Source: an uncultured Erysipelotrichaceae bacterium
GTDB taxonomy: Bacteria; Bacillota_I; Bacilli_A; Erysipelotrichales; Erysipelotrichaceae
Direction of reading: 5' to 3'
Assembly: GCA_902786245.1 (NCBI GenBank)
Contig: CADABS010000052.1
Coordinates: forward strand, 1 to 33,166
DNA: 33,166 nucleotides
The notes under the pieces were generated by a model. The model ran no database searches, was not told where the DNA came from, and saw only the letters and a list, made by a program, of their open reading frames with translations. The position numbers and the translations under genes were made by a program. The stretch's first letter is position 1; the number at the start of each line of letters is the position of its first letter. This document shows, one piece after another, positions 3,861 through 12,330 of this stretch.

Positions 3861-3878
3861 GATCCGGTAATGCATGAA
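3861..3878. repeat. 18-bp direct repeat, copy 2 (partner 3580-3597)
   Basis: It matches 3580-3597 at 17 of 18 positions. In the leftward frame it also reads F-M-H-Y-R-I, but the flanking frame is not recognisably WYL, so only this short block is shared. Confidence 0.55.
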
Positions 3879-3984
3879 CACAATGTCTTGCGGAAAACAA
3901 GTAAATCCCTCTTTTTCGGCAGAATCAAAGAATCAAATACTTAGATTCTGTCGATTCCGACTTTTCCACGTAAAGAAATCAACA

Positions 3985-4008
3985 AGGGCTGTCTTTTGGG
4001 GCAGCCCT
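3985..4008 (-). terminator. terminator after oleate hydratase
   Basis: AGGGCTG and CAGCCCT form the arms of a hairpin with a CCCCAAAAGA-type loop. Read leftward it is followed by TTGTTGATTTCTTT, an imperfect U-tract. It lies 22 bp past the stop of the leftward oleate hydratase gene. Confidence 0.6.
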
Positions 4009-4030
4009 GTTTTGATCATGTTGAAAAAGT

Positions 4031-5806
4031 TCAGATCACGCGGTATTCCTTCAGCAGTTTTTCCACATCGGTGCCTTTGACTAAGTCAAGCACTTTGCCG
4101 ATGGCGATCTTCTCGATCAGGCCAAGCTTCATTTCGGTAATAGGCTTGCCATCCCGCATACTGATCGTTGCCTTCAGAAGATCACGAACATCATAGATAC
4201 TGCCCCAGACCTCAGGAACACCGCGATCCACGTTCATAAGCGTATAGACTGCCACCATGGCCGTGCGCATTGAATACTCCGTAGTGAACACGGTATCTCT
4301 TTCGACTTCAGCGAAATTGCCGATGAAGGCGAAGTTCACTGCACCTTCAGGAATGACGTCCGGCCTGTCGCCTGCAGCGCGCGGCATGAAATATGCACTT
4401 GCAAAGGGCATCATGACGGGGATTGTTCTGGCACTGTTGGAAGCCAGTTCCCCGATCTGATCCTCGGGGACTCCGATATGATACAGCCATTCCATACAGA
4501 TCTCCCTGCCGGTGCAGTCACGCATACTTTTCTTGACGTAATCACCGGGGCGATCGGTGAACAGTCCATAGAGCCATACCAGACACTGGTCTTTCGGCTG
4601 GGAATGGAACTGAGGCTGGCGATTGATTGTCCAGCTCAGGAGCCATCCGGAATCTCTGGCTGTCACAATACCGCCTGTGACGACCTTGCCTGACAGCGGA
4701 TCCCGCTGGCAGATGTTCTTGATATAAGGCAGGATCTTGTCATCGAGCGTGTTGACAGTTACACCCATCCAGTTGCATTCTTCCGGATTGCCATAGAATT
4801 TTTCCGGGTGCCCGAAAGCAGAATCCTGCGCAGCGATCTTACGCCACAGGTCAAAAGATCCACCCGGCCTGATCTCCGTGATGTATTCGCAGGTCTTATC
4901 CTGCCCGCCGATAGAGGAGTTCTCAACATTGCTGCCGTTGGTAATGAAGAGATAATCGTTCTCTCCCAGATCCAGGAATGTCGTGTGGCCGTCCGCAAGA
5001 AGCTCCACACGTTTTGCTATCTTTTTTTCGCCGTGAATTTCAAAGCGCACATCCATGACCTGTGTGTTGAAATGGAAATTTACGCCGTGGCTCTCCAGGT
5101 ACCTGACCATGGGGAGAATCATTGACTCATACTGGTTGTACTTTGTAAAGCGCAGTGCCCGCAGGTCAGGCAGACCGTCGATGTGGTGGATAAAGCGCTG
5201 CATATAGCGTTTCATTTCCAATGCGCTGTTGCAGTCGTAGAAGGCGAACATAGTCCGCCAGTATGTCCAGAAATTGCTGTCCAGCACCTCAGAGTCCAGT
5301 ACATCTGTGATGCGTTTTCCTTCCAGAGCCTCATCCGGTGTAAAGATCAGGTGTGTCAGCTGAAGAGCAGCCTTGTCACTCAGGCAGAACTTCCCGTCCG
5401 TATGAGCATTCTGACCCTGCTTCTCTGTCACGCGGCAAAGCGAGTAGTTGGGGTCGGCTTTGTTCAGCCAGTAATATTCATCGAGTACACTGACACCCTC
5501 CGTCTCGATCGACGGGATCGACCGAAACAGATCCCACATGACTTCGAAATGGTTATCCATCTCCCTGCCGCCGCGCATGACGTAGCCGATCTCAGGATAG
5601 TTCCAACCGTCGCATGCGCCGCCGGCAATCGGGTCGCGGTCAAAGAAGTGTATGTTTTTTCCGGGCATCTGCGCGTCGCGCACCAGGAAACATCCGGCTG
5701 AGAGAGCGGCAAGTCCGGTTCCGACAAAGTAAGCGCGCTTGTGCTCAATCCCTTCCGGCTTCAGTGGCCGCGCAAAGGCTTCATAATTTCCGCTGGAATA
5801 GTACAT
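4031..5806 (-). CDS. ohyA: oleate hydratase (FAD-dependent, MCRA family)
   Basis: Adds water to the cis-9 double bond of oleate, giving 10-hydroxystearate, which detoxifies host unsaturated fatty acids. The 591-residue length is normal. Near the N-terminus YFVGTGLAALSAG is the FAD-binding glycine motif, and FFDRDPIAGGACDGW follows. YVMRGGREMDNHFE holds the conserved acid: Glu82 matches by numbering the catalytic Glu82 of Staphylococcus aureus OhyA. The C-terminal NFAFIGNFAEVERDTVFTTEYS stretch is also family-typical. The start is supported by AAAAAGGAGG 7 nt upstream. A TetR gene lies 121 bp upstream on the same strand and probably controls it in response to fatty acids (inference). Confidence 0.95.
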   Translation of the reverse strand: MYYSSGNYEAFARPLKPEGIEHKRAYFVGTGLAALSAGCFLVRDAQMPGKNIHFFDRDPIAGGACDGWNYPEIGYVMRGGREMDNHFEVMWDLFRSIPSIETEGVSVLDEYYWLNKADPNYSLCRVTEKQGQNAHTDGKFCLSDKAALQLTHLIFTPDEALEGKRITDVLDSEVLDSNFWTYWRTMFAFYDCNSALEMKRYMQRFIHHIDGLPDLRALRFTKYNQYESMILPMVRYLESHGVNFHFNTQVMDVRFEIHGEKKIAKRVELLADGHTTFLDLGENDYLFITNGSNVENSSIGGQDKTCEYITEIRPGGSFDLWRKIAAQDSAFGHPEKFYGNPEECNWMGVTVNTLDDKILPYIKNICQRDPLSGKVVTGGIVTARDSGWLLSWTINRQPQFHSQPKDQCLVWLYGLFTDRPGDYVKKSMRDCTGREICMEWLYHIGVPEDQIGELASNSARTIPVMMPFASAYFMPRAAGDRPDVIPEGAVNFAFIGNFAEVERDTVFTTEYSMRTAMVAVYTLMNVDRGVPEVWGSIYDVRDLLKATISMRDGKPITEMKLGLIEKIAIGKVLDLVKGTDVEKLLKEYRVI

Positions 5807-6981: not shown

Positions 6982-8034
6982 TTATTCCTTATCAGTATTG
7001 TAGGATTCAAACATTTCCTTCATCAGCTTTTCATAATCATCTGTTGCTCTTTTCATGATCTTCTTTGATGCATCGACATAGATCTGCATAGTCGTCTCGA
7101 TGTCACTATGACCGAGCAATGCCTGCATTGCTTTTATGTTGATGTTGGCTTCATTCAATCTAGTACCGAATGTATGCCGTAGCATATGGCAATGGATCGA
7201 CGGAAGCAGCAAGGGTTTCTGTCCGGGCTTTGCATTATCCAGGACCTGCTCATTACAGTCTTTCACAATATTTTTGAGTGCTGCGTTAAGTGTTGTCTGC
7301 GCATAAGTCAGTCCGAAGCGGTTCAGGAAGACGAAATCATCATAACCTTCAACATTGGCACAGCAGGTTATGCCATGAGATTCCTGATACTGTTTTTCCT
7401 GTTCAAATGCTTCCTTGACCATAGAGATCATTTCAACTTTTCTCTCACCGGCACGGGTCTTTGTTTTGTTCATGACCAAGTGACATTTGTGATCATCCAT
7501 GTTCCGGTAATTGACCAAGGTCTTGTTCACACGGATATAGTCATTTTCAAAATCGATGTCTTCCCATTGAAGGGCAGTGACTTCTCCTACACGAAGTCCA
7601 GCCATCATCATGACGATGAAGATCGGATACCAATGGCGGTGCTCATTGCTTGTTCTCAGATATGAAGCAAAGAGGACTTCCTCCTCGGCAGTAAGAGAAG
7701 ACACTTTCTTGCTCTCTCTGGCATGCTCGTTCATCAGTTCTTTTAATGCCTTGTCGGCAGGATTATAACGGATAATATCATCATCGACCGCTAGTTCCAG
7801 CATCTGATGTATTACACAGTGCACATTATCGATCGTGGCAGCTTTCATTCCGTTTTCATAGAGTTGATTATAGAAGGTTTTGAGATCTGAGCGTTTTAAT
7901 TCCAGGATCTTTGCGTTGCCGATAGTATCCATAGCAAATTTTTCGTACATGTATTGATAGTTGTGGAAAGTGCTTTCCTTCAACCCTCGTTTGACAGATT
8001 TCCATAGAGCATTAAAAAGAGTGAATTCTATCAA
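6982..8034 (-). CDS. tyrosine recombinase/integrase, 5'-truncated
   Basis: Phage/ICE-type integrase. The catalytic domain is complete: MAGLRVGEVTALQW (first Arg), NKTKTRAGERKV (beta-hairpin Lys), CHMLRHTFGTRL (HxxR), LLGHSDIETTMQIYVDAS (His and nucleophile Tyr). The core-binding domain begins right at the ORF start (FNALWKSVKRGLKESTFHNY). Tn916-type relatives carry another ~60-70 residues of arm-type DNA-binding domain before this. Here the frame opens only with a TTG, has no ribosome site, and meets a stop two codons upstream (8041-8043). So the 5' end was lost at about 8035-8045. Catalysis may survive, but the element is probably immobile. Confidence 0.8.
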   Translation of the reverse strand: MIEFTLFNALWKSVKRGLKESTFHNYQYMYEKFAMDTIGNAKILELKRSDLKTFYNQLYENGMKAATIDNVHCVIHQMLELAVDDDIIRYNPADKALKELMNEHARESKKVSSLTAEEEVLFASYLRTSNEHRHWYPIFIVMMMAGLRVGEVTALQWEDIDFENDYIRVNKTLVNYRNMDDHKCHLVMNKTKTRAGERKVEMISMVKEAFEQEKQYQESHGITCCANVEGYDDFVFLNRFGLTYAQTTLNAALKNIVKDCNEQVLDNAKPGQKPLLLPSIHCHMLRHTFGTRLNEANINIKAMQALLGHSDIETTMQIYVDASKKIMKRATDDYEKLMKEMFESYNTDKE

Positions 8035-8296: not shown

Positions 8297-8424
8297 TTGC
8301 GACTGAAATTTGACCTGGTTTTGACAGCAGAGCGACTTGAGTTATGTTTTGCGACTGATGTATGACCATCCCTGCGACAGGTCGGAGACGCCCTTGTAAT
8401 AGGATTGTGACTGTAATCGCGATT
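8297..8424. repeat. three TTGYGACTG repeats plus a palindrome upstream of the XRE gene
   Basis: TTGCGACTG occurs at 8297-8305 and 8349-8357 and TTGTGACTG at 8405-8413, at 52 and 56-bp steps. The first two extend to TTGCGACTGAAATTTGAC and TTGCGACTGATGTATGAC. AATCGCGATT (8415-8424) is a perfect palindrome starting 37 bp before the XRE start. Together they look like repressor-binding sites or recombinase arm sites; which one is not decided by sequence. Confidence 0.5.
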
Positions 8425-8451: not shown

Positions 8452-8748
8452 ATGAGCTTTAACCAGAAAGAAATCGGCCAGCGGGTGAACGAACTTCGTA
8501 CTGGCCATCAGCTCAGCCTGGATCAACTGGCTGATGCTGTTAATTGCACTCGCGATCATCTTTACAGAGCAGAACGTGGAGAACCCAGGCACGGCTTTTC
8601 TATCGATATTCTGATTGAGATTGCGCGATACTTTGATGTCAGCCTGGATTATCTGATTCTCGGTGTGGAAGGAAATAATCATGCCATCCGGGAGGAGCTG
8701 ATACGTATCTCAGGCGAATTAAGAATGCTTTGTGGAAAGATAATCTGA
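8452..8748 (+). CDS. XRE/Cro-CI-family HTH regulator
   Basis: 98 residues with the HTH_3 fold in the first ~70: IGQRVNELRTGHQLSLDQLADAVNCTRDHLYRAERGE, then the second helix pair IDILIEIARYFDVSLDYLILG. The C-terminal ~28 residues are a short helix. The ribosome site ACAAGGGAG followed by seven T lies directly before the ATG and can pair with CCCTTGT at 8391-8397. It probably represses its own promoter and controls the element (recombinase, MazF) downstream, judging from the upstream palindrome. Confidence 0.88.
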   Translation: MSFNQKEIGQRVNELRTGHQLSLDQLADAVNCTRDHLYRAERGEPRHGFSIDILIEIARYFDVSLDYLILGVEGNNHAIREELIRISGELRMLCGKII

Positions 8749-9192
8749 ACGGCGCAGAGCGCCATATTCCATGGCGTACCACGCCGATGAACTGAAAGGA
8801 AGGAGAACATAGAATATGACCATAAGCAGCCTGTATCACGAAGTATCACACTGCTTGTATGTTCCTTGACAAATACTGCGTCAGAACCAGATGCAGTCAC
8901 AAGCAGTAACGAAAACGTTAAGCAGAGGAATAGCCATGTAAGCAGGTACGCCATGACCCTTATTGGCGAGCGAGAATATCTGGACTTATAAGCGGCCTGA
9001 TGCAAAGGGCTGCAGCGATGACAACTCTGCCGACAATGATACTCCCGTATGGCCATGGTTCGAGTGAAAGGAATAACTCCGCAAGCTGTGGGTGCGGCCG
9101 GTTGAAGAACCACCGGAGGCTGAAATGCCTGTGATGCTACGCAATAGCTATTCATACTGCTGAAAAGAGATCACAATCACAAAACTATTCAG
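8749..9192 (+). other. hairpin-rich region without a convincing gene; candidate structured RNA
   Basis: Just after the XRE stop come GGCGC-AGA-GCGCC (8751-8763) and GGCGT-ACC-ACGCC (8773-8785). Then follow AAGCAG/CTGCTT (8824-8856), CTGCGTC/GATGCAG (8876-8896), TAACG-AAAA-CGTTA (8907-8920), CGCCA/TGGCG (8949-8968), CCGCA/TGCGG (9079-9097) and GGTT-GAAG-AACC (9100-9111). Short open frames occur in all three forward frames: a frame open from 8791 to 8991, one ending at 9067 with TPVWPWFE, a 44-residue one at 9000-9134 with SCGCGR, and MPVMLRNSYSYC at 9125-9163 behind GGAGG. None dominates. A strong hairpin follows at 9193. It could be a noncoding RNA or a decayed small gene. Confidence 0.3.
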
Positions 9193-9242
9193 GTGTCCGG
9201 ATCTGAGCTGTTAGCGCAGTTCGGATCCGGACACTGTTTCTT
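9193..9242 (+). terminator. strong 18-bp hairpin upstream of mazF
   Basis: 9193-9210 pairs with 9217-9234 over 18 bp (two G-U pairs; the outer 11 bp are GTGTCCGGATC/GATCCGGACAC) around a 6-nt loop. TGTTTCTT follows. It may terminate the upstream transcript or act as an attenuator in the mazF leader, since the mazF ribosome site begins 16 nt later. Confidence 0.6.
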
Positions 9243-9260: not shown

Positions 9261-9671
9261 ATGGCAGAAGTAATTGAGATGTATCAAGGGATACCCTCCG
9301 ATTGGGTATATCATCGAGGAGATATTTACATAGCGAATCTGAATCCATACACCGGGGCAGAACAAGGCGGAATACGCCCGGTTGTCGTTCTGCAGAACAA
9401 CATAGGAAATCTCCATAGCCCGACACTTATCGTTGCGGCGATGACCAAAGAAATTAAACGAACAGATCTTCCTACACATGTCTATATCAGACCGGCTGGA
9501 AATCTGAAGAAGCCCTCTATTATTGTCCTGGAACAGATCCGAACAATCGATAAATCCCGTGTACATCGCTATGTCGGCAGGCTATCACCGATGCAGATGG
9601 ATCTGGTCGATAGAGGGATCAGAAGAAGTCTTGGACTTGACAACGAACCGGAATATGATGACGCTTCATAG
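9261..9671 (+). CDS. MazF/PemK-family toxin endoribonuclease, no antitoxin adjacent
   Basis: 136 residues, ATG behind CAGGAGG. After a ~16-residue leader the PemK fold is clear: VYHRGDIYIANLNPYTGAEQ (family RRGD-Y-A-L-P--GSEQ), GGIRPVVVLQNN, SPTLIVAAMT, LPTHVYI, IIVLEQIRTIDKSRV and a final GIRRSLGL helix. MazF proteins cleave single-stranded RNA at short motifs. The normal upstream MazE/RHH antitoxin is absent; the next upstream gene is the XRE repressor, 500 bp away. It may be a tamed MazF-like cargo protein of serine-recombinase elements, or the antitoxin may be non-canonical. Confidence 0.9.
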   Translation: MAEVIEMYQGIPSDWVYHRGDIYIANLNPYTGAEQGGIRPVVVLQNNIGNLHSPTLIVAAMTKEIKRTDLPTHVYIRPAGNLKKPSIIVLEQIRTIDKSRVHRYVGRLSPMQMDLVDRGIRRSLGLDNEPEYDDAS

Positions 9672-9786: not shown

Positions 9787-9957
9787 ATGCAAGCCGTAAT
9801 TCATGTTGGCGAAGAGAGCGAACCGTATGTAAAGCTCCTCGTCCAGAAAAGAGTCGATCTAGCAATAAAGATCGTAGAGACCTGGCAGACAGAACAGCTG
9901 AAGGCTCTTCTCACTGAATGGAAGAAGGACCATCCGGCTGAATTGAAGGCTGCATAG
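9787..9957 (+). CDS. small helical protein upstream of serine recombinase
   Basis: 56 residues, with GGAGG 6 nt before the ATG. After a short strand (MQAVIHVGEESEP) it is one long amphipathic helical stretch (VKLLVQKRVDLAIKIVETWQ, LKALLTEWKKDHP). It lies 44 bp before the recombinase on the same strand, so it is likely co-transcribed and part of the element. Candidate for a recombination directionality factor or accessory protein, but it is not basic enough to call DNA-binding. No family recognised. Confidence 0.6.
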   Translation: MQAVIHVGEESEPYVKLLVQKRVDLAIKIVETWQTEQLKALLTEWKKDHPAELKAA

Positions 9958-10001: not shown

Positions 10002-11951
10002 ATGAGAAGACGAAGGACTGCCGCTATGGGTGAAGACACCCGGAAGGTAGCCATCTACACCCGAAAATCTGTTATCACAAACAAAGGTGACAGTATCGGC
10101 GTACAGCTGAAACAGAGTGCTGATTATGCTATGAGCCAGCTGAAGCTGCCGGAAGATTATGAGTTTGAACAGTACAGTGACAAAGGTCTGAGCGGCTACT
10201 ATGCTGACAGGCCTGATTTTCAGAGGATGCTCCATGATATTGATTCCGGCAAGATCCGGGCTGTTGCCTGTTACAAGCTGGACCGGATCAGTCGTAAAAC
10301 ATCGGATCTGATGAGACTGCTGGAGTATCTGGAAAAGAACGATGTCGTCCTTCTTGTCTGCTCTAACAACATCAATACCCAGATCAGCACATCCAAGATC
10401 ATCATCCAGGTGCTCGCGATCATCGCCGAGTTTGAGCGCGATATTCTAACAGAACGTATTCAGGATAACCTGATGGAACTATCCAAGGATGGACGTTGGA
10501 TGGGCGGACAGACACCGACCGGATTTGACAAGCAGAGAGTTGCAACCGGCAGCGGGAAAAACAAAAGCGCTGTCAGTTTCCTCGTCCCGATCCCGGAACA
10601 GAGGGAACAGGTACAGCTGATTTTCAAAAAGTTTCTGGAAACACGATCATATAACCGGACAAAGGTTTACATGAATGAAAATGGCTATGTTACCAAGAAC
10701 GGACTTCCATACCGTATGCGGGCTATCAGCGATATTCTTCATAATCCGGTATATTGTACAGCTGACCCGACTTCTTATCAGTTCTTTTTTGACAACGGTG
10801 CCAATGTTGCGGGAAACATTGAAGATTTCGATGGAAAACATGCATTAAGCGGTTATAATAAAACCGACCACGTAAAAGACGAACACGAAGATTCGACTTT
10901 CTTCAATCCAAAGTTCACGCAGCTCTCTTTCCGGAAGCCAATTAACGATTGGATCATATCAGTTGGAAAGCATGAGCCTTTTATTTCTTCGGAAGACTGG
11001 ATTGCTGCACAGCAATTGATGAAGGACATCGAAGAGCAGCATAATCGCCCGCACCGTGCGACTAACGCTTTACTTTCAGGTTTGATGATCTGTCCGAAAT
11101 GCGGCAAAGTCCTGAATGTGGTTTCTGAATCCGGTCGCTGGACCAGAGGAAGACCTCGTTTCAAGTACGTATGCCCCGGACATCGAAAAAAGGAATGCGA
11201 TTACCTGGCTGTTGATGGCGTTAAGTTGGATGATCAGGTGGTGAGACAGCTCGCTGCCTTAGTGGATGAGCAGAAGGAGACTTATTTCAAGCTGATTGAA
11301 GCAAGGATCCGGGAGCTTACAAGATCAGATGCTTCGGAACGTGAATACCAGGAAACGAAGAAAGATATCGAAAAGATCAAGGCGGATATTGCTGCACAGA
11401 TCAGGAACTTGCGTGAAGCAGATGACGTTCTCAGAAAATTCATCCAGGATGATGTGACAGAGATGTCCGCAGAACTCAGCCGGAAAGAAGCAGTTTTGCT
11501 GAAACTTGAAGAGGAACGCGGTGATAATTCACAGACCATCGAGGATCTTTCTCAGGTCAAGAAAAAACTGGCGGATTTCAAGGAATCATGGAAGACGGCA
11601 ACACCGGAAGAACTCATGTCAATGGTCCGGGCGGTCGTCGAAAGAGTCTACGTTGTCTATGAAGACGATGAACCTATTGCTCACATATTTTTGAAAGGTT
11701 GTATCAAGGAAGACTATACCAGCTTCTTTGATACAGCTGGTTACATACCTTTTACTGGCAATGGGGTATTAAAGGTCAATTTGTGTGTGATTCAGCGCCA
11801 TGAAAATGACGCAGAAGAAGAAATACACACACAAATGACGCAACCGGACAAGTATCGGGAACTGCATTCATACATATGCCGGGGTGCAGCTGCGGGCGGA
11901 ATGCGGCCGGCAGATGCGGATCCTGCGGTCAAAGTACGGACAGGATTATGA
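10002..11951 (+). CDS. large serine recombinase (site-specific integrase)
   Basis: 649 residues, ATG behind AAGGAGG. The resolvase domain (about 14-155) has the nucleophile in VAIYTRKSV (Ser23), then YSDKGLSGYYADRPDFQRML and YKLDRISRKTSDL. The recombinase domain (about 165-290) follows. A zinc ribbon (CPKCG near residue 366, CPGHRKKEC about 25 further) and a coiled coil (about 420-540) complete the large-serine-integrase plan. Such enzymes join attP and attB without host factors. The last ~30 codons are out-of-frame macrodomain sequence, so the right attachment site lies inside the 3' end of this gene and the stop codon is supplied by the host gene. Confidence 0.95.
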   Translation: MRRRRTAAMGEDTRKVAIYTRKSVITNKGDSIGVQLKQSADYAMSQLKLPEDYEFEQYSDKGLSGYYADRPDFQRMLHDIDSGKIRAVACYKLDRISRKTSDLMRLLEYLEKNDVVLLVCSNNINTQISTSKIIIQVLAIIAEFERDILTERIQDNLMELSKDGRWMGGQTPTGFDKQRVATGSGKNKSAVSFLVPIPEQREQVQLIFKKFLETRSYNRTKVYMNENGYVTKNGLPYRMRAISDILHNPVYCTADPTSYQFFFDNGANVAGNIEDFDGKHALSGYNKTDHVKDEHEDSTFFNPKFTQLSFRKPINDWIISVGKHEPFISSEDWIAAQQLMKDIEEQHNRPHRATNALLSGLMICPKCGKVLNVVSESGRWTRGRPRFKYVCPGHRKKECDYLAVDGVKLDDQVVRQLAALVDEQKETYFKLIEARIRELTRSDASEREYQETKKDIEKIKADIAAQIRNLREADDVLRKFIQDDVTEMSAELSRKEAVLLKLEEERGDNSQTIEDLSQVKKKLADFKESWKTATPEELMSMVRAVVERVYVVYEDDEPIAHIFLKGCIKEDYTSFFDTAGYIPFTGNGVLKVNLCVIQRHENDAEEEIHTQMTQPDKYRELHSYICRGAAAGGMRPADADPAVKVRTGL

Positions 11952-12330
11952 ACAGCCTGTTGCAGTGCCGATGATCACAGACGGATACAATCTTCCTTCG
12001 AAGAAAGTGATCCATGTCGTCGGACCTATCGTATCCGGAAACCTGACAGAGGAACTGGAACAGAATCTGGCAGACTGCTATAAAAATGTTCTTGCCATGT
12101 GTCAGGAACATCAGTTGAAGACCGTTGCTTTCTGCTGTATTTCCACCGGTGTCTTCCGCTTTCCCAATCAGCGGGCTGCGGAGATTGCCGTACAGACAGT
12201 GACGGAATGGCTCACGGAACATCCGGATTCCCCGGAACGGGTCATCTTCAATGTGTTCAAAGATGAAGACAGAAAATACTATGAACAGGAATTGTTTCAG
12301 CCGTGCAATGAACAGACGGAAAGAAGGTGA
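11839..12330 (+). pseudogene. 3' half of a zinc-type macrodomain gene (SirTM-operon type), interrupted by the element
   Basis: In frame from just after a stop at 11836-11838, homology starts at NCIHTYAGVQLRAEC and runs on through PTDGYN-like VPMITDGYNLPSKKVIHVVG, then TVAFCCISTGVFRFPNQRAA and VIFNVFKDED. These are the second half of the macrodomains that remove SirTM-made ADP-ribose. The first half, with the N-A-A-N ligand motif and the Cys/His zinc ligands, is missing. Its place is taken by the recombinase gene. About 150-160 of some 260 residues remain, with no ribosome site at the nominal GTG (11884). The 3' end overlaps or touches the sirtuin start. Confidence 0.85.

Follow-up and report, generated by a model that had tools for sequence, protein, structure and literature searches.

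The closest described counterpart of the RNA treated here is canT, a 452-nt cis-acting processive antiterminator situated between orf8 and xis of Tn916 (Wirachman & Grossman 2024, PMC11658703). It is orientation-specific, needs no Tn916 protein or other Tn916 gene, cannot be supplied in trans, works on terminators from Tn916, B. subtilis, E. coli rrnB and lambda, and passes three terminators in a row (PMC11658703). The promoter, canT and int of Tn916 read toward the end of the element, and once the circle has formed this transcript runs over the junction and beyond terminator T1 to the transfer genes; single-sequence folds of canT allowed its authors no interpretation (PMC11658703). Another RNA-based antitermination system of a conjugative element is conAn of pLS20, with the difference that conAn also uses a protein (PMC11658703, PMC8955417). 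The HK022 put and Bacillus eps EAR RNAs, going by their descriptions, are likewise elements of processive antitermination in cis (PMC11658703).

We analysed the non-coding interval between the end of an HTH gene at 8748 and the start of mazF at 9261 in the window, the whole stretch of 33,166 nt of DNA that was examined. The original prediction for this interval was a noncoding RNA of a mobile element in which no known RNA class was recognized. The covariance-model search which it had called for gave a match above the cut-off, namely pemK RNA (RF02913) at 9033-9134 on the + strand, with 49.6 bits (gathering cut-off 34.8 bits), an E-value of 2e-07 and all model positions 1-61 of 61 covered, so that the statement about the class did not hold. 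RF02913 was the sole curated Rfam match and the Rfam search found no other family in the window. The family has been one without function, carrying in Rfam only the type Cis-reg.

The pemK motif inside canT of Tn916

pemK lies inside canT of Tn916. When the canT coordinates were mapped, the site of the inactivating mutation canT(S3), in which TGC takes the place of ATA beginning at nt 283 behind the orf8 stop (PMC11658703), fell exactly on pemK model positions 1-3, the counterpart of 9033-9035 in the window. The 162-nt canT deletion covers -53 to +108 of the pemK motif and removes it as a whole. An independent check was provided by the antisense orf5, which has 83 codons, of which codon 30 is GCA as in the published account (PMC11658703) and the Tyr codon 65 coincides with the S3 site. 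Among the pemK loci, L022, L023, L140, L120 and L121 contain Xis and Int sequences of the Tn916 type; over 901 bp, L140 matches plasmid records with the annotation Tn916 excisionase at 100% identity. S3 inactivates canT in the 452-nt fragment and has little effect in a 400-nt canT fragment (PMC11658703), so the 5' end of pemK may be needed only in some contexts. There is no mention of pemK in PMC11658703, and literature searches with RF02913, pemK RNA and canT gave no paper joining pemK with canT and none with the full architecture described below. Upstream of canT in the Tn916 copy at L140, at 3861-4090 (-), we also observed the Rfam family SQ2397 (RF03532), which regulates an HTH transcription factor in cis.

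The window RNA is very likely homologous to pemK/canT RNA. It has in common with Tn916 canT the RF02913 motif, a boxA-like sequence and the long-range helices PL, PM and PN (seen at L022/L140), and both RNAs are located between a small regulator gene and integration genes and are oriented toward the recombinase. They differ in what follows, mazF and a serine recombinase in the window and xis-int in Tn916, and in the divergent boxA, 20-nt insertion and different P1 apical loop of the window copy. In pLS20, compared for pemK/canT-like features only, no RF02913 match was found in positions 1-40000 at E up to 3, and neither such a boxA nor AUAAUGAUAC in positions 1-50000.

The larger RNA domain and its boxA-like element

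DNA homologues of the entire non-coding interval were found in only three other genomes, all of the same genus (98, 89 and 75% identity), and no DNA similarity of the window itself to plasmids was found. RF02913 is present in 47 of the 196 genomes of the family, with matches also in other families of the class, and in none of the 14 control genomes at E <= 0.001. About 90 pemK loci were collected and dereplicated to 58, nearly all of which share ordered blocks upstream of the Rfam motif: the boxA-like GTTCTTTGAMAACTGAATA, ACGUU, GAGCC, a CGCCAUGAC hairpin and then GAGCGA, another hairpin, and GCGAUGAC with AUAAUGAUAC directly after it. These blocks are not covered by Rfam, and no other family was found in the upstream half of ten loci. 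The Rfam motif is only the 3' part of a larger structured non-coding RNA domain, situated at about 8862-9161 (+) in the window. A boxA-like sequence, the long-range helices PL, PM and PN and the pemK junction make up this domain; the three helices, like hairpin P4, are outside the Rfam model.

When MAFFT alignments of the full RNA were folded with RNAalifold, PL and PM were indicated; these alignments were too gappy to be used alone, and the helices were therefore tested by comparing the best helix per locus between defined segments with that between the same segments mispaired from different loci. For PL the mean over 56 loci was 20.1 compared with 14.35 (sd 0.36) for mispaired strands, more than 15 SD, for PM it was 19.0 compared with 13.3 (z 16.7), and for PN (z 5.6) none of 5000 permutations was as high; the permutations keep composition and position but do not model relatedness, and the effects are large. 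PL pairs the strand before ACGUU with the strand after P4, in the window AGCAGUA (8902..8908) with UACUGCU (9155..9161), which forms the 3' end of the domain. PM joins the strand after ACGUU, itself at 8915..8919 between PL and PM, to the strand before AUAAUGAUAC, here GCAGAG (8922..8927) and CUCUGC (9025..9030). PN, made of CAGGUA (8943..8948) and UAUCUG (8977..8982), flanks the hairpin CGCCA-UGACCCUUAU-UGGCG with the conserved CGCCAUGAC (8949..8968), which is followed by GAGCGA. Further hairpin GGCCU-GAUGCAAA-GGGCU (8994..9011) varies in its stem and keeps its pairing in relatives G005 and G034, and the conserved GCGAUGAC is found at 9015..9022. Inspection by eye revealed compensatory changes between the window and G034 in PL, PM and PN alike, and a fold constrained to these three helices is just 2.4 kcal/mol above the optimum. 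All of these elements, like those of the pemK core, are on the + strand.

In the pemK core 88.3% of cells are paired and covariation is 0.531, compared with 0.251 after shuffling and at most 0.196 after sliding. Its three-way junction consists of the covarying P1, P2 and P3 and a closing Y-R pair, and the window row pairs at all four. P1 (9045-9050 with 9092-9097) bears an extended apical loop, P2 (9098..9116) has an AGAAC loop, P3 (9117..9130) is the covarying hairpin AGGC-UGAAAU-GCCU, and the junction is closed by 9042-9133 and 9044-9131. P3 is fully paired (3 bp) in 56 of the 58 loci, and roughly ten distinct combinations of pairs are represented among them. The hairpin P4, GCUA-CGCAA-UAGC, follows at 9136..9148. 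Folding energy was less informative: the 492-nt interval folds better than 100 of 100 shuffles (z -4.4), to which its terminal hairpin contributes much, and 8862-9170 alone is unremarkable (z -1.65) and was left out of the evidence.

The noncoding RNA of a mobile element that had been proposed is therefore supported by the Rfam match, by strong covariation in its helices, for which the original prediction had asked, by the lack of a coding signal and by integration modules adjoining it in many genomes. Neither of the outcomes that would have counted against it, a third-position substitution bias in one frame or a lack of covariation in the stems, was seen. The RNA is real, and its start is situated about 110 nt farther downstream than had been proposed. 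No significance could be confirmed for the two adjacent hairpins noted earlier, GGCGC-AGA-GCGCC (8752-8764) and GGCGT-ACC-ACGCC (8777-8789), each with a GC stem of 5 bp and a loop of 3 nt; they lie outside the conserved RNA, upstream of it, lose pairs in homologues and are broken in some of them, and belong to a fast-diverging segment (30% divergence from G034 upstream of 8862).

The conserved RNA begins with a boxA-like element, TTCCTTGACAAATA at 8862..8875 (+), recognized by 11-mer enrichment across loci. The boxA-like 11-mer occurs upstream in 36 of the 58 loci, compared with 0.49 expected from shuffles, and a close variant is present in most others. The consensus of the canT/pemK loci, TTCTTTGAAAACTGAATA, is found as an exact 18-mer in the 16S-23S rRNA spacer of relatives (L201, L202), and because of this identity we consider the boxA-like sequence to be that of the rRNA boxA region. 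At rRNA boxA, NusB and S10 are the factors involved. The difference is that the boxA of pemK/canT is tied to a large structured RNA and not to rRNA; the HK022 put and Bacillus eps EAR RNAs are not known to be linked to a boxA. The copy in the window, TTCCTTGACAA, is a variant of the consensus. An exact 18-mer was also seen at L203 in genome G014, a locus with no rRNA or pemK match, and possibly belongs to some other boxA-dependent element.

Genomic context and alternative explanations

Directly upstream of the RNA is a gene for an Xre-type HTH regulator (8452..8748, +; Pfam HTH_3, 1.3e-08), which takes the place of the sigma-factor/Orf7-Orf8-like genes of other pemK loci; a sigma-like gene is upstream in 38 of the 58. 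Between the RNA and mazF is a terminator-like hairpin (9192..9235, +) of 20 pairs and a GTTTCTT tail, which had been correctly anticipated and is kept in three relatives. The first gene after the RNA codes for a MazF/PemK-family toxin (9261..9671, +; Pfam PF02452, 2.4e-32). A conserved small gene of 56 aa follows (9787..9957, +), which has no Pfam match and a 61-aa relative in the same place at L169; its product could be an antitoxin or a recombination directionality factor. A large serine recombinase gene (10002..11951, +; Pfam Resolvase, Recombinase and Zn_ribbon_recom) forms the right end of the element. HTH gene, RNA, mazF and recombinase are thus all on the + strand.

Across loci, 44 of the 58 have a serine or tyrosine recombinase gene no more than 1.7 kb downstream of the RNA and on its strand, and none has one on the opposite strand; mazF is downstream in 16, and in a few a ParA/ParB-type gene is next after the RNA. 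This mixture of downstream genes indicates that the RNA serves integration and maintenance modules in general as a leader and is not specific for MazF. At L162, L170, L195 and L030 the RNA precedes parA/parB-type genes with no nearby recombinase, perhaps on plasmids or plasmid-like elements.

Such a distribution is difficult to reconcile with a gene-specific leader, similar to an attenuator or riboswitch, that would switch the 9192-9235 hairpin for mazF only and without processive modification of the polymerase. The Cis-reg type of pemK in Rfam, the terminator-like hairpin in front of mazF and the hairpins before mazF in many loci speak for such a leader. However, the RNA also precedes xis/int, serine recombinases and parA/parB at distances that are not fixed, its Tn916 member acts on unrelated terminators, three in a row, and no competing pairing of the RNA with the terminator was seen, which makes this explanation unlikely.

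It could also be argued that the window copy has decayed and is non-functional, as it is the one copy in the genome and its boxA and spacing are divergent: CCTT replaces CTTT in boxA, an insertion of about 20 nt separates boxA from PL, and the gap from PL to ACGUU is 5-6 nt and not 0-2 nt. Nevertheless, its PL, PM and PN are maintained by compensatory changes relative to G034, and its pemK part diverges from that relative more slowly than MazF does (8% vs. 24%), so decay is very improbable.

The original prediction had further suggested that the RNA could be a partner of the orphan MazF, i.e. an antitoxin of a type III-like toxin-antitoxin system. The RNA does adjoin mazF, and there is no recognizable protein antitoxin, but at 42 of the 58 loci no mazF was detected behind the RNA. 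Tn916 is among them: xis and int follow its canT, which acts in cis on terminators and cannot be supplied in trans. Moreover, the 56-aa gene after mazF could itself encode the antitoxin. An RNA dedicated to an adjacent RNase toxin is not what the 16 mazF loci among 58 depict, and we regard this role as most improbable. We give no more credence to a recombination-associated RNA, guide or bridge-like, acting with the serine recombinase or integrase: linkage to recombinase genes is strong, yet the partners are unrelated (serine and tyrosine recombinases, and also parA/parB), the variable segments are paired helices and not free guide loops, and both Tn916 canT mutants excise normally (2.04% and 1.82%, wild type 1.68%; PMC11658703). 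Coding function was rejected, in agreement with the earlier observation of short frames without a consistent start or family, because mismatches between the window and G005 show no third-position bias in the RNA (10/7/2 by frame position, compared with 6/8/38 for HTH and 12/9/39 for MazF), several indels between relatives break the frames, and each of the six frames has at least two stops in 4 of 4 homologues.

Proposed action of the RNA and other features of the element

By analogy with Tn916, the window copy probably acts in antitermination, and we consider it likely that it is a canT-type RNA which enables transcripts begun at the HTH promoter to continue through terminators to the MazF and serine recombinase genes. 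The layout of the window, with RNA and recombinase reading toward the element end, is as in Tn916. The RNA at about 8862-9161 would be transcribed with the message of the HTH gene, and on its exit from the elongating polymerase the boxA-like segment, presumably by recruiting NusB/S10, and the compact domain of PL, PM, PN and the pemK three-way junction would modify the enzyme. The modified RNA polymerase would then pass terminators, of which the hairpin at 9192-9235 before mazF is a candidate nearby target, and in the excised circle those beyond the attachment site may be further targets. In this way the expression of mazF, of the small gene and the recombinase gene behind it, and of genes on the far side of the circle junction would be tied to transcription that starts upstream of the RNA.

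The wider result is that an Rfam family so far an orphan forms the 3' part of an antiterminator known from experiments, and that this antiterminator has long-range helices and a boxA-like element. The family thereby gains a function, and canT gains a comparative structure, whose 5' pemK nucleotides already carry an inactivating mutation and which may help to interpret canT; a second gain is the boxA-like element, which points to a mechanism, and PMC11658703 has neither of the two. With about even odds, pemK RNA and canT represent a single class of antiterminator RNAs, self-contained and widespread among the mobile elements of this bacterial group. Such a class would borrow the boxA machinery (NusB/S10) of host rRNA, rely on a folded RNA domain where phage-type systems have an antitermination protein, and control conjugation as well as serine recombinases and the MazF and ParA/ParB maintenance modules. 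How excision, MazF, partition and transfer genes are controlled in a large group of mobile elements becomes directly testable.

Several other features of these loci deserve mention. Where mazF directly follows the RNA (L025, L027, L031, L123, L134, L137, L151, L166 and L191), the start of mazF has a hairpin and TACATA nearby. Of the 16 mazF loci, 13 contain TACATA, in four cases farther upstream, compared with 10 of the 42 others, and it is absent in the window. UACAU is a cleavage site of Bacillota MazF, and these sites may serve self-regulation.

GCGAC/TGAC repeats, most of them spaced by 10-12 bp, precede the HTH gene (8299..8378) where homology between the four elements begins, and are conserved in G005 and G034 with a different copy number; they are possible binding, operator or recombinase sites. 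In 4 of 4 genomes the right end of the element lies inside a macro-domain gene that has a sirtuin gene as its neighbour (11840-12330), and there the macro-domain gene is without its first 12-15 profile positions; it is a likely preferred attachment site of the serine recombinase. The left end, with any terminators there, is outside the window. Just left of the element, a tyrosine integrase gene at 6982-8034 (-) reads away from it and belongs either to a second integrative element or to a part of a larger one.
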